From: Hyphomicrobiales bacterium
GTDB lineage: Bacteria > Pseudomonadota > Alphaproteobacteria > Rhizobiales > Xanthobacteraceae
Reading direction: 5' to 3'
Assembly (NCBI GenBank): GCA_016201085.1
Contig: JACQDO010000113.1
Span: 1-20,977 of the forward strand
DNA length: 20,977 bases
The position numbers and the translations under genes are program-made. The notes below the pieces were generated by a model, which was not told where the DNA came from, ran no database searches, and was given only the letters and a program-made list of their open reading frames with translations. This document shows positions 4,746 through 13,598 of this stretch, piece after piece (position 1 is the first letter of the stretch; each line of letters starts with the position of its first letter).

Positions 4746-4879
4746 TGCGGTTACCTGGCAATTCCCTCGAATTGCGCGCCTTTTAACAGGGGTTTACGGG
4801 ATTCGCCACTGGTGTGGCGCGCCGTTTGCAAACCGCGCAGCCCATGCCTAGATGACGCTGATTGCAGGGGTTCAAGCGT
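4746..4879. promoter_or_regulatory. Divergent intergenic region hisB / hslV
   Basis: This 134 bp gap must carry leftward expression signals for hisB and rightward signals for hslV. An AGGGG Shine-Dalgarno-like run lies about 10 bases before the hslV ATG at 4880. I looked for a heat-shock (RpoH) promoter, as expected for hslVU, but did not find a convincing -35/-10 pair. Confidence 0.4.
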
Positions 4880-5431
4880 ATGTCATCCAACGAACTTCCC
4901 AACTGGCACGGCACCACCATCCTCACCGTCCGCAAGGGCGGCACCGTGGTGATCGGCGGCGACGGCCAGGTCTCCATCGGGCAGACCATCGTCAAGGCCA
5001 ATGCCAAGAAAGTGCGCCGCCTGGGCAAAGGCGACGTGATCGGCGGCTTTGCCGGCGCCACCGCCGACGCATTTACCTTGTTCGAGCGGCTGGAGAGCAA
5101 GCTCGAGCAGTATCCCGGCCAGCTCACCCGCGCCGCGGTCGAGCTCGCCAAGGACTGGCGCACCGACCGCTATCTGCGGCGCCTCGAAGCCATGATGCTG
5201 GTCGCCGACAAGCAGGTATCGCTGGTGCTCACCGGCACCGGCGACGTGCTGGAGCCGGAGAACGGCGTCGCCGGCATCGGCTCCGGCGGCAATTATGCGC
5301 TCGCCTCGGCGCGCGCGCTGCTCGACGGGCCGCTCGACGCCGAGGCGATCGTGCGCAAGTCGCTCGACATCGCCGCCGACATCTGCGTCTACACCAACCG
5401 CAACGTCACCATCGAGAAACTACCAACCTAA
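4880..5431 (+). CDS. hslV: ATP-dependent protease HslV (ClpQ), peptidase subunit
   Basis: HslV is the proteasome-like threonine peptidase that forms a double hexamer and degrades proteins unfolded by HslU. The ATG at 4880 gives 183 residues with a short propeptide ending in WHG. Cleavage before Thr12 ([10 protein letters not shown]) exposes the N-terminal nucleophile. GDGQVSIGQ and the [14 protein letters not shown] motif are diagnostic. An in-frame TTG at 4862 is a less likely start. The gene is usually induced by heat through RpoH. It is followed by hslU after a 111 bp gap occupied almost entirely by a palindromic repeat. Confidence 0.97.
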
Positions 5432-5542: not shown

Positions 5543-6850
5543 ATGACCGACTTCTCCCCGCGCGAAATCGTCTCCGAACTCGACCGCTACATCGTCGGCC
5601 AGACCGACGCCAAGCGCGCGGTCGCCATCGCGCTGCGCAACCGCTGGCGCCGCCTACAGCTCGACGACAGGCTGCGCGAGGAAGTGCTGCCCAAGAACAT
5701 CCTGATGATCGGGCCGACCGGCGTCGGCAAGACCGAAATTTCGCGCCGCCTGGCCAAGCTCGCCGGCGCGCCGTTCCTCAAGGTGGAAGCCACCAAATTC
5801 ACCGAAGTCGGCTATGTCGGCCGCGATGTCGAGCAGATCGTGCGCGATTTGGTCGAGATCGGCATCGCGCTCACCCGCGACAGAAAACGCAAAGACGTGC
5901 AGACGCGCGCCGAACAGGCGGCGGAAGAGCGCGTGCTCAACGCTTTGGTTGGGCCCGGCGCCAGCCCCGCCACGCGCGAAAGCTTCCGCAAGAAGCTGCG
6001 CGACGGCGAGCTCAACGACAAGGAAATCGAGATCGAGGTGCAGGGCGGCGGCGCCGGCATGCCGATGTTCGAGATCCCCGGCATGCCCGGCGCGCAGATG
6101 GGCGCCATCAATATCGGCGATATCTTCGGCAAGCTGGGCGGCGGCCGCACCAAGACGCGGCGCGTCACCGTCTCGGAGTCGCACCCCATTTTGATCAACG
6201 AGGAATCCGACAAGCTGCTCGACAACGATCAGCTGGTGCTGGAATCGATCAAGGCTGTGGAGCAGAACGGCATCGTCTTCCTCGACGAGCTCGACAAGAT
6301 CGCCGGACGCGAGGGCCGCATGGGCGCCGACGTGTCGCGCGAGGGCGTGCAGCGCGACCTGCTGCCGCTGATCGAAGGCACCACCGTCAACACCAAGCAC
6401 GGGCCGGTGAAGACCGACCACATCTTGTTCATCGCCTCGGGCGCGTTCCACATTTCCAAGCCGTCCGACCTGCTGCCCGAGCTGCAAGGCCGGCTGCCGA
6501 TCCGCGTAGAGTTGAATGCGCTCACGCGCGACGACATGCGCCGCATTTTGACCGAACCGGAAGCCTCGCTGATCAAGCAATATGTCGCGCTGCTCAACAC
6601 CGAGGGCGTGACGCTGGAATTTTCCGAGGATGCCATCGACGCCATCGCCGACATCGCGGTGGCGGTGAACTCCTCGATCGAGAATATCGGCGCGCGCCGC
6701 CTACAGACGGTGATGGAACGCGTGCTCGACGAGATCTCGTTCGCGGCCACCGACCGCTCCGGCGAGACGGTCAAGATCGACGCCGCTTACGTGCAGAAGC
6801 ACATCGGCGATCTGGCCAAGAATACCGACCTGAGCCGGTTTATCTTGTAA
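5543..6850 (+). CDS. hslU: ATP-dependent protease ATPase subunit HslU (ClpY)
   Basis: HslU (435 residues) is the AAA+ unfoldase that caps HslV and feeds substrates into it. The Walker A loop GPTGVGKT is at residues 57-64, the pore loop GYVGRD at 90-95 and the Walker B FLDEL at 246-250. The family-specific I-domain lies between about 110 and 230. The C-terminus DLSRFIL is the conserved tail that inserts into HslV to activate it. Length is normal. It should be co-transcribed with hslV, although a repeat element sits between them and could affect message stability or the ratio of the two subunits. Confidence 0.98.
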
Positions 6851-6902: not shown

Positions 6903-6920
6903 TCGCAATATTTGTTGCGA
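6903..6920. promoter_or_regulatory. Operator-like inverted repeat upstream of HTH/Dcd-like gene
   Basis: TCGCAA (6903-6908) and TTGCGA (6915-6920) are perfect inverted arms around a 6-base TATTTG spacer. The right arm overlaps the -35 of the candidate promoter at 6912. A second symmetric site, CGCGA-GAACT-TCGCG, lies upstream at 6866-6880. The arrangement is what a self-repressing XRE/HigA-type regulator would need. That binding is an inference. Confidence 0.5.
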
Positions 6921-6940: not shown

Positions 6941-7117
6941 CTGTGACGGTCAGGACGAATTTGCCTTCAAATTCAGACATTAACGTAAACCTGCGCGACC
7001 CCGTTTTATATGAGTTTTTCTGCCTGTGGATGCCAGACGCTACAACCTTAACGGCAATTCCGATTTACACCTCTTGTGTTGCCGAGCAATATATTTTGGC
7101 CAAAGGAGTGGCGTGCC

Positions 7118-7897
7118 ATGTCCGCAACGAGGCGGCGCGATCGCGCCGCCCTAAGTGAAATGACGCCGGGCCAACACCTCCGCGCGGAAATCGAACGACT
7201 CGGACTCGATCAAGTTGCAGTGCGCAAGGCGACCGGCGTCTCTCGCCAGACGATCAATAATATCGTTAATGACCGCCAGCCCATTTCGCGGGCCATGGCC
7301 GGCAAGCTCGGCCGTCTCACCGGCCATGGTTCCGATTACTGGTTGCGGGCTTCGTTTTCGTCCGCGCCGCGCGCCGAACATCCGGCGAAGACGCGTGCTG
7401 CCGTTCGCCCAATCGGCGGCGGTGTCCTGGTGAATTATCAGATCGCGCAGGCGGTGAAAAAGGGCATCATTGGCATGGAGCCTTTCGACGAAGCCAATGT
7501 GCGTCTCACCTCGGTCGATCTCACGCTCGGCGATTTTCTGATCACCCCCGAGGGCAAGAAAATCAATATCGGCGGCGGGCACGGATTTACGCTTAAACAT
7601 AATTGCACGGTCAATGTTAGCACCAAGGAACGCATTGAACTTCCGCCGGACCATGTCGGCCGCGTCGGCGCCATCATGAGTCTGGCGAAAAACGGGATAT
7701 TCACTTCCGCCGCTTTCCAGCTCGCACCGGGCTTCAACGGTCATCTGCATTTCTGCATTTTCAATTCCGGCCGGGAAAGTCTCGAACTCCGTAGCGGAAT
7801 GCCGATCGTCAGTATTGAGATCATGTCCCTGAGCGTTTTGCCGCTCATGAACGGGGCCGGAGTCGAGCAACCGCGCCGCGGCCGCCGCCGGCCATGA
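7118..7897 (+). CDS. HigA/XRE-type HTH fused to a dCTP deaminase/dUTPase-fold domain lacking catalytic residues
   Basis: The ATG at 7118 follows AAGGAG with 10-base spacing and gives 259 residues. Residues 15-77 (from TPGQHLRAEIERLGLDQ to DYWLR) match the HigA antitoxin / XRE helix-turn-helix pattern, with the recognition helix around SRQTINNIVND. Residues 103-238 resemble Dcd/dUTPase: VNYQIAQAVKKGIIGMEPFD, SVDLTLGD, a central ERIELPPDHVGRV, then PGFNGHLHF and LRSGMPI. Against remembered E. coli Dcd, Ser111, Arg115 and Glu138 correspond here to Met187, Lys191 and Cys213, so deamination is unlikely. The probable role is a DNA-binding regulator that senses a nucleotide or a protein partner. No higB-like toxin gene adjoins it. 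The gene is an extra between hslU and the Smr gene, with AT-rich flanks, so it may be horizontally acquired. Domain calls are good; the function is inferred. Confidence 0.8.
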   Translation: MSATRRRDRAALSEMTPGQHLRAEIERLGLDQVAVRKATGVSRQTINNIVNDRQPISRAMAGKLGRLTGHGSDYWLRASFSSAPRAEHPAKTRAAVRPIGGGVLVNYQIAQAVKKGIIGMEPFDEANVRLTSVDLTLGDFLITPEGKKINIGGGHGFTLKHNCTVNVSTKERIELPPDHVGRVGAIMSLAKNGIFTSAAFQLAPGFNGHLHFCIFNSGRESLELRSGMPIVSIEIMSLSVLPLMNGAGVEQPRRGRRRP

Positions 7898-8364: not shown

Positions 8365-8946
8365 TCAGCCGCCGCGCGCGCGACGCACCCGCACATAAAG
8401 CGCGCCCTCGCCGCCATGCGAGACATGGGCGTCTTCGAAGCCGATCACCAGCGCGCGGAATTCCGGCAGCCCCAGCCATTGCGGCACGTGCCGGCGCAGC
8501 ACGCCCGGTTCGCCACCGCGGCCTTTGCCGGTGATCACCAGCACCAATCGGGCATCGCGCGCGATGGCATTGCGCAGGAAATGCAACAGCGCGGAATGCG
8601 CTTCGCTTTGCGTGAGGCCGTGCAGGTCGAGGCGGCCATCGATCGCCTCTTTGCCGCGCGCGACGCGCGCCCGCATGCGGCGGCCGAGCGGCGCTAAAGG
8701 CGGCGGTTGGGGCCGAACCTTAGCAGCGGACTTGGCGCGCTCCCTCTCCCCTTGGGGGAGAGGGCTGGGGTGAGGGGGCAAGTGACTCTCGTTAGGCTGT
8801 AACCCCTCACCCGACGCGCTTCGCGCGTCGACCTCTCCCAATGGGAGAGGTGAAGTGCGCAGCGGCGCGATCGATTTGGTGACGATGGTCCATAGCACGC
8901 GCTCGTCTGGCGTAAGAACGCGGCGTCGGTTGCCGTCGCGGCTCAT
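8365..8946 (-). CDS. Smr (MutS2 C-terminal type) domain protein with in-frame palindromic insert
   Basis: This 193-residue protein belongs to the stand-alone Smr group, putative nucleases or nucleic-acid binders of unknown physiological role. The N-terminus VLTPDERVLWTIVTKSIAPL (about residues 10-29) and the Smr domain from about residue 100 are conserved. Key Smr motifs are LDLHG at 106-110 and TGKG at 139-142, followed by HGGEGALYVRVRR at the end. Residues 32-70 (SPLPLGEVDARSASGEG... HPSPLPQGERER) are a translation of the palindromic repeat at 8742-8851 and have no protein-family character. They fall in the linker between the N-terminal motif and the domain, so function may survive. It begins 9 bp after the mltA stop, probably in one operon with it. 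Confidence 0.9.
   Translation of the reverse strand: MSRDGNRRRVLTPDERVLWTIVTKSIAPLRTSPLPLGEVDARSASGEGLQPNESHLPPHPSPLPQGERERAKSAAKVRPQPPPLAPLGRRMRARVARGKEAIDGRLDLHGLTQSEAHSALLHFLRNAIARDARLVLVITGKGRGGEPGVLRRHVPQWLGLPEFRALVIGFEDAHVSHGGEGALYVRVRRARGG
8742..8851. repeat. Palindromic element, family B copy 1, inside the Smr coding sequence
   Basis: CCCTCTCCCC (8742-8751) pairs with GGGGAGAGGG (8755-8764). ACCTCTCCC-AAT-GGGAGAGGT forms the right hairpin at 8831-8851. Between them lie TGAGGGG, its partner CCCCTCA, and a small hairpin GACGCGC...GCGCGTC at 8813-8829. The same modules occur at 12191-12342 after secB. The element is read through in frame by the minus-strand Smr gene. Confidence 0.9.
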
Positions 8947-13166: not shown

Positions 13167-13598
13167 TCAGCGCTGCCGTTTCGGCATCTTAGCGACGCTT
13201 TTGAGAATATCACGCACCTGCGCGCGCGCCGCATCGAAGCCTTGAGAGCTATCCACGATGAAATCTGCGCGGCGGCGCTTTTCGGCGTCCAGCATTTGCT
13301 TGGACAAAAGAGCCTGGAACTTCTGGCGCGCGCCATGCACAAGCGGGTGCACAATCGATTCAAGCCGCTTGATGGCGGCGGCATCGCCCAGCACGCTTTT
13401 CGCAAGCTTCTCGCGATCGACCTTGCCGTTGGCGGTGGTGCCTGGAAACGCCGCTTCGATGGCGCCGGTGGCCTCACCCTCATAGAGCCGGTGCACGGCG
13501 GCGTCGGCGTCGTAGACCGGCACGCCAGCCTCGGCGAACATCTTCGCCGTGGTGGACTTGCCCATGCCGATCGAGCCGGTGAGACCGAGGATGAACAT
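13167..13598 (-). CDS. coaE: Dephospho-CoA kinase with a large internal deletion
   Basis: CoaE phosphorylates dephospho-CoA, the last step of CoA synthesis. Only 143 residues are present; the family is normally about 200. The N-terminal part is intact: P-loop [12 protein letters not shown] at 5-16 and the DAD motif at 30-32. So is the C-terminal part: [26 protein letters not shown] at about 95-120. HPLV (84-87) runs straight into GARQKFQ, so about 55-60 residues are absent. These include the usual DIPLLFE strand and most of the lid. The reading frame is kept. The enzyme is probably inactive or strongly altered unless the gap is a sequencing or assembly error. CoaE is normally essential, so another copy may exist elsewhere. 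The start is 7 bp after the maf stop. Confidence 0.85.

Follow-up and report, generated by a model that had tools for sequence, protein, structure and literature searches.

What is the function of a protein that joins a HigA-type helix-turn-helix (HTH) to a dCTP deaminase-like (DCD) domain in which all three catalytic residues are replaced? This question is raised by a gene for a protein of 259 residues in a DNA stretch of 20,977 nucleotides from a Hyphomicrobiales bacterium (the window, meaning the whole stretch analyzed; Table 1). A sequence-only reading had described the fusion and proposed that the former enzyme domain senses a nucleotide or a protein and thereby controls the HTH, with a possible link to phage satellites and phage defence. 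A strongly conserved HTH, a box that recurs 5' of the gene, selection acting on the pseudo-enzyme domain and, in the outgroup, a metabolic neighbour gene together point to a one-component transcription regulator with an oligomerizing, probably ligand-sensing pseudo-enzyme domain, a reading to which we assign a probability of roughly 0.55.

Table 1. Features of the window around the fusion gene (positions are those of the window)
Feature	Position	Strand	Remarks
hslV	4862..5431	+	upstream neighbour; which we take to be hslV
hslU	5543..6850	+	upstream of the fusion gene in 21/21 named loci
Inverted repeat TCGCAA-TATTTG-TTGCGA	6903..6920		just 3' of hslU
Upstream box CTACAACCTTAACGGCAA	7040..7057	+	same sequence in L007, the closest named relative; its position makes it a candidate operator
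TTTACA	7064..7069	+	possible -35 element; recurs in many compared upstream regions
AATATA	7088..7093	+	possible -10 element; AATAAA in many relatives
AAAGGAG	7102..7108	+	putative ribosome-binding site, by eye
HTH-DCD fusion gene	7118..7897	+	259 residues; short form, without the C-terminal part of longer relatives
HigA-type HTH	7154..7357	+	residues 13-80; most conserved region of the protein
Pseudo-dCTP-deaminase domain	7421..7837	+	residues 102-240; S111/R115/E138 replaced by M187, K191 and C213
smr	8365..8946	-	convergent downstream neighbour in 20/20 loci whose contig continues

The fusion and the identity of its two domains, as previously read from the sequence, are confirmed by profile and fold matches. 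The HTH scores 43.9 bits against TIGR02607 (HigA) in a profile search, the NCBI cut-off being 47.7, and its fold matches HigA chains (structures 6chv, 9chn, and 6jpi). The protein scores 61.7 bits against the Dcd equivalog TIGR02274 (below the cut-off of 92.8) and 14 bits against the dUTPase family PF00692 (below the Pfam gathering score of 22), and the DCD fold is found in it by profile and structure comparison, which places the C-terminal half in the Dcd/dUTPase superfamily as had been claimed; the structural alignment ends at residue 168 of the 193 residues of Dcd. The predicted model has a pTM of 0.54, so its domain placement is unreliable. Besides the fusion gene, the same genome has on C83 a gene for another, two-domain DCD protein and on C298 one for a dUTPase (PF00692, 111.9 bits). 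Among the database matches listed, family members are named 'dCTP deaminase', 'HigA antidote' or both, one being a plain 'helix-turn-helix', and the public name of the Pseudolabrys taiwanensis protein is 'addiction module antidote protein, HigA family'. The names 'dCTP deaminase' and 'HigA antidote' are misleading, as the catalytic residues are gone and no toxin is found beside the window's gene. A solo HTH paralogue of 102 residues with no DCD domain is seen in G206 (L084:6339-6647, minus strand) near genes for a resolvase (PF00239) and a type IV conjugative coupling protein (PF02534), and looks like a passenger of mobile DNA.

Aligned to E. coli Dcd, the window protein has Met187, Lys191 and Cys213 in place of Ser111, Arg115 and Glu138, the same replacements that the sequence-only reading had obtained by hand. 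An alignment of homologues extends this loss to the family: the triad is intact in none of 183 fusion rows, and position 138 is Glu in none of them (C135, S13, H10, Y7, A6, R4, V3, T1, W1, F1, I1, gap 1). Of these rows, 160 are database proteins, 19 come from named loci, 3 from outgroup loci and one from the window; they are not independent because some database entries repeat named loci and one (P0150) is the L127 protein. The residue counts leave out the window's own database entry (P0001), and the named-locus rows leave out L009 (contig end) and L027 (truncated gene). A shift of the catalytic residues by misalignment is rejected, as two alignments agree and superposition supports the DCD register. 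In a control, six canonical Dcd proteins have Ser, Arg and Glu in 6/6, a result that is partly circular in that the open reading frames were chosen with a motif already requiring Ser and Arg (a seventh locus, L135, which has no such motif, was dropped); the motif set no requirement at positions 110, 126, 128 or 138. Most fusion rows have other residues at positions Arg110, Ser111, Arg126 and Glu138. Judging from these alignments, catalysis by the fusion protein is very unlikely, and enzyme activity was probably lost before the family split. Another DCD-like family likewise lacks the catalytic Glu of Dcd, having Ser or Ala there by eye; its members are encoded at L129:3693-5558 and L130:3775-5588, with a related protein in L035. 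They have a hydrophobic C-terminal stretch (by eye), and in L129 and L130 the gene lies together with a DUF1643 gene and one for a protein of 184-188 residues without a Pfam match above cut-off.

The residues that replaced those of Dcd are not distributed evenly. Among the 148 genus-type database proteins, 127 have Cys at position 138 and 134 have Gln at position 126, where Dcd has Arg. All 14 outgroup rows have Gln at position 126 and Asp at position 128, and 13 have His at position 115; at position 138, nine of the 14 have Ser, four Ala and one Cys. That pocket residues are fixed in a form foreign to Dcd suggests reuse of the site in the genus-type database and outgroup branches. In the 20 named-locus rows, position 138 is variable (C7 H5 V3 R2 S1 I1 A1), and drift of the pocket in the second clade argues against one conserved ligand there. 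The pocket would thus be fixed in some branches and drifting in others. Both domains are under purifying selection: in seven pairs, which are not independent in that some loci are used twice, dN/dS is 0.05-0.13 for the HTH, 0.15-0.68 for the linker and 0.16-0.42 for the DCD half, the last exceeding the HTH value in 7/7.

The location of the gene is constant. In each of the 21 named loci the fusion gene is preceded by hslU in the same orientation, and in all 20 whose contig continues smr lies convergently downstream. Nineteen of the 21 loci have 81-329 bases between hslU and the fusion gene; the distance is larger in L019 (643) and in L008 (1510), where the interval includes a frame of 393 residues. 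Stretches from 14 of the 17 genomes of the genus that lack the gene were read, and 13 of these have hslU and smr with no fusion gene between them, the sequence of the other (L118) ending too soon. In a tree of seven flanking proteins, presence and absence of the fusion gene are patchy, which fits repeated loss; L015 has flanks that group with the window's species branch but a fusion protein of the other clade, which hints at exchange between members of the genus. The GC content of the fusion gene is 0.61-0.68 in eight other loci, close to that of the surrounding locus. The idea that the gene lies on a mobile insert is rejected because it sits between hslU and smr in 21 named loci; no fusion was found in the viral contigs, phage records and plasmids searched, and the phage and plasmid matches are separate Dcd or HigA genes. 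The earlier statement that the gene has no toxin partner is supported for the DNA next to the window's gene: there is no Pfam match at E 0.1 in five frames, four beside the gene and one antisense to it, and the neighbours are hslU and smr.

The hslU-smr junction may be an insertion-tolerant site. Other genes are seen there in L008, L108, L111, L112, and L117, and L111 and L112 have at the junction a membrane protein-like frame of about 390-400 residues, which in L008 accompanies the fusion gene. An orthologue at L027:9890-10381 (the G224 gene) is cut off early in the DCD domain and lies directly against smr, the gene of its sister L012 being whole; as read from the DNA, this is a natural loss of the DCD half. 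Two further observations concern the window itself. Short palindromic repeats CTCTCCC...GGGAGAG (by eye) lie at 8740-8860, inside the smr frame. A gene at 13167-13598 on the minus strand, named by eye as that for CoaE (dephospho-CoA kinase), encodes 143 residues, whereas its counterparts from five related loci have 198-199. Relative to L007, 56 residues of the central part are missing in frame. CoaE is normally essential; the gap may be a real deletion or an assembly error.

Two database searches matched 397 and 444 proteins, with the best 120 of each listed and 8000 candidates scored in the second; 119 of the best 120 of 397 have both domains in the precomputed Pfam column, and P0106 has the DCD domain only. 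An outgroup query, likewise with 8000 candidates scored, matched 17 proteins; leaving the query itself aside, 11 of these add to the relatives already found. The family as described here refers to 160 database proteins compared, several hundred having matched. Twenty-six of the 43 genomes of the window's GTDB genus match at E 1e-59 or better, one with a truncated gene, and seven more match by short pieces only. In a family sample of 198 genomes (up to eight candidates scored per genome), 75 match at E 0.001, only seven of them over most of the length and all within the window's genus. With up to four candidates scored per genome, six of 397 genomes of an order sample reach E 1e-15 (that of the window, three with fusions, which belong to two other families, and two whose matching protein has the DCD part only); samples of the class (385 genomes) and phylum (398 genomes) give 5 and 25 matches, consisting of the window's own and, for the rest, the DCD part only. 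Named members are from Pseudolabrys and other Hyphomicrobiales-type records, metagenome-assembled for the most part.

Upstream of the gene, CTACAACCTTAACGGCAA is common to the window and L007, whose intergenic regions are, however, similar over much of their length. The CGCAA-N6 dyad of the inverted repeat just 3' of hslU is found in these two only among 22 upstream regions. TTTACA and AATAWA boxes are recurrent, their spacing differing between clades, and therefore no mapped promoter is claimed. The pattern CA[AC][TC]TN3[GA][GA]TTG occurs 74-79 bases before the start in 15 of the 22 upstream regions, all of the second clade (15/16), and has nine matches elsewhere in the same 22 sequences (744,026 bases, both strands counted); it is not matched in the window, L007 or L008-L012. 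The exact string ACAATTAnYGGTTG has seven matches in 20 genomes of the genus, five of them before the fusion gene, one in G182, which is without the fusion gene, and one elsewhere in G000, the reversed control giving 0. These patterns were drawn by eye from the same promoters that they match, and orthologous promoters are alike by descent. The best 4-base dyad is present in 9 and the best 5-base dyad in 4 of the 22 upstream regions, the maxima in 50 shuffles being 3 and 2, where shuffling removes shared ancestry. A shared operator is rejected, as none of these dyads is common to all 22 upstream regions.

Relatives from two other families are longer. The proteins of G265, G266, and G369 have 424, 449, and 451 residues and consist of the HTH, the DCD domain and a C-terminal part; those of L126 and L127 are 31% identical. 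Long fusions (more than 330 residues) make up 80 of 161 database proteins, 12 outgroup proteins included. The C-terminal part has no Pfam match above cut-off, and the rows listed for the long-form model in a structure search cover mostly the DCD domain and the HTH. By hhalign, the C-terminal part of the genus proteins is related to its counterpart in the L127 group with a probability of 73% and to that of L126 with 60%, the two outgroup types matching each other with 1%; a common origin of this part is likely at best. In the HTH-DCD tree, made without P0001, P0054 (a fragment) and P0150, the outgroup is not recovered as a single clade, and parsimony gives seven changes between long and short forms with the root resolved as short. 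The long form is perhaps ancestral, solely on the ground that the outgroup members are long, and their C-terminal parts match weakly; no remnant of a C-terminal domain is found 3' of the window's gene (tblastn, best E 1.2).

The fusion gene is directly followed, in 3/3 outgroup loci, by a same-strand gene for a PLP enzyme of the PALP family (PF00291, 84-85 bits). The best NCBIfam relative of these enzymes is the cysteine desulfhydrase Cds1 (79-112 bits, far below the cut-off of 600), and between the two families they are 22-23% identical. The spaced element TGTAAA-N19-TTGACA occurs twice each in G266 and G369, once before the regulator gene and once before the PALP gene, and nowhere else; it is absent from five other genomes searched, and the reversed control gives one match, in G265. 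In an ungapped comparison of regulator and PALP promoters, 35, 23, 37, and 36 of 40 Markov-null pairs reach the observed value for L127 and L128, and L126 is weakly above null (4/40 at 20 bases, 16/40 at 31). A link between the two promoters through this element is only suggestive, because it was chosen after seeing the four promoters, G266 and G369 belong to one genus and so are not independent, and the generic comparison for them is not above chance. Within the window's genus, PALP matches at E 1e-20 come from 2 of 43 genomes and are 27% identical; no close relative of the outgroup enzyme was found in the 43 genomes. The 10-16 kb of sequence surrounding each of the three outgroup genes contain no match to HslU or HslV.

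Several other functions have to be weighed against that of a ligand-responsive regulator. The DCD half might be an oligomerization scaffold that binds no ligand, making the protein a constitutive autorepressor or a DNA-architectural protein. The variability of position 138 in the named loci and the higher dN/dS of the DCD half in every pair are in keeping with such a role; the prevalence of Cys138 and Gln126 in genus-type database proteins and of Gln126, Asp128 and His115 in the outgroup speaks against it, and we regard it as rather unlikely. Use of Cys213 in a new enzymatic reaction has in its favour the Cys that most genus-type database proteins have at the Glu138 position, but this Cys is present in no more than 7 of the 20 named-locus rows and in 1 of the 14 outgroup rows, and the idea is exceedingly improbable. 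The constant position downstream of hslU on the same strand would suit a regulator, adaptor or substrate of the HslVU protease. However, 13 genomes of the genus have hslU and smr without the fusion gene between them, other genes occupy the junction in some, a 393-residue frame separates the two genes in L008, and the outgroup members have no HslU or HslV match around them; a coupling to HslVU is thus very doubtful.

An orphan HigA antitoxin, as the databases name it, is suggested by the TIGR02607 score and by the annotation of the Pseudolabrys taiwanensis protein, but that score is below the NCBI cut-off, the adjoining frames are without Pfam matches, and we know of no HigA with a DCD domain, so that this assignment has very little probability. 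The possibility of a nucleotide-pool or phage sensor used in defence arises from the joining of a DCD fold to a repressor-type HTH, which would be a covalent counterpart of the switching of Stl by dUTPases, as excerpts of two studies describe it (PMC4231751; PMC6695447). Against it, the chromosomal locus is fixed, the fusion is absent from the viral contigs, phages and plasmids searched, PADLOC reports only RmrA at E 0.02 over the HTH, the pocket residues are replaced, and the outgroup neighbour is a PLP enzyme; this function is highly unlikely, and the phage-satellite and defence link of the sequence-only reading is unsupported. The defence, toxin-antitoxin and active-enzyme functions each fail one of the tests described, and all three are improbable. 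What stands of the earlier proposal is a sensing domain that controls the HTH, still the best reading; the nucleotide as ligand is unproven, given the residues at positions 110, 111, 126, and 138 in most rows and the PLP enzyme beside the outgroup genes.

For the one-component regulator, the following mechanism can be proposed. The HigA-type HTH would bind just 5' of its own start (about 7040-7075) and control at least its own gene. The DCD-fold half would be a pseudo-enzyme that no longer deaminates dCTP and would oligomerize the protein; free Dcd is a homotrimer. Most likely, this half has a changed ligand pocket whose occupancy would alter DNA binding, as the inactive Nudix domain does in NrtR/BtAraR. 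In distant relatives, a longer regulator gene is followed by that of the cysteine desulfhydrase-like PLP enzyme, and both promoters share the spaced element in two genomes; feedback control of amino-acid or thiol metabolism may thus have been an older role of the regulator. A more detailed scenario is speculative and on balance doubtful: a dCTP deaminase would have become the sensor of a different small molecule, with a pocket rebuilt early (Glu138 to Cys, Ser or Ala, and Arg126 to Gln); the longer, perhaps older form would feed back on the adjacent PLP-dependent sulfur-amino-acid enzyme via paired promoter elements; and the trimeric fold would impose a trimer on DNA or a hexameric repressor. 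If the protein is a regulator, DCD is to be added to the enzyme folds that transcription factors are known to have taken over as sensor domains, and a concrete place to seek the ligand is the PALP neighbour of the outgroup. A structural question is also raised, namely how a domain of three-fold symmetry is accommodated at DNA sites of two-fold symmetry. Open-access literature, judged by titles and the beginnings of abstracts, yielded no report of an HTH-DCD regulator or of the DCD fold as a regulator domain.

Compared with known systems, the fusion differs from Dcd (PF22769/TIGR02274; E. coli 1xs1 and M. tuberculosis 2qxx) in the replacement of S111, R115 and E138 and in the addition of an N-terminal HTH. 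Its HTH resembles that of the HigA antitoxin (TIGR02607) in fold and sequence, with a score below the NCBI cut-off, but the protein has a DCD domain and no HigB partner was found beside the window's gene. The Stl repressor, which is switched by free phage dUTPase, likewise links an HTH repressor to a fold of the dUTPase superfamily (PMC4231751; PMC6695447); Stl and dUTPase are two separate proteins and the satellite is mobile, whereas the fusion is one protein at a fixed chromosomal locus. The closest working analogue is NrtR/BtAraR, in which, as far as the consulted part of the source describes it, the Nudix domain has lost its catalytic residues and ligand binding to it turns the DNA-binding domain (PMC4666351). 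The fusion has the same combination of a DNA-binding domain with a nucleotide-enzyme fold whose catalytic residues are lost; NrtR/BtAraR joins Nudix to a C-terminal winged HTH, whereas the fusion joins DCD to an N-terminal XRE-type HTH. The regulator design proposed here is one already known from NrtR/BtAraR (PMC4666351).
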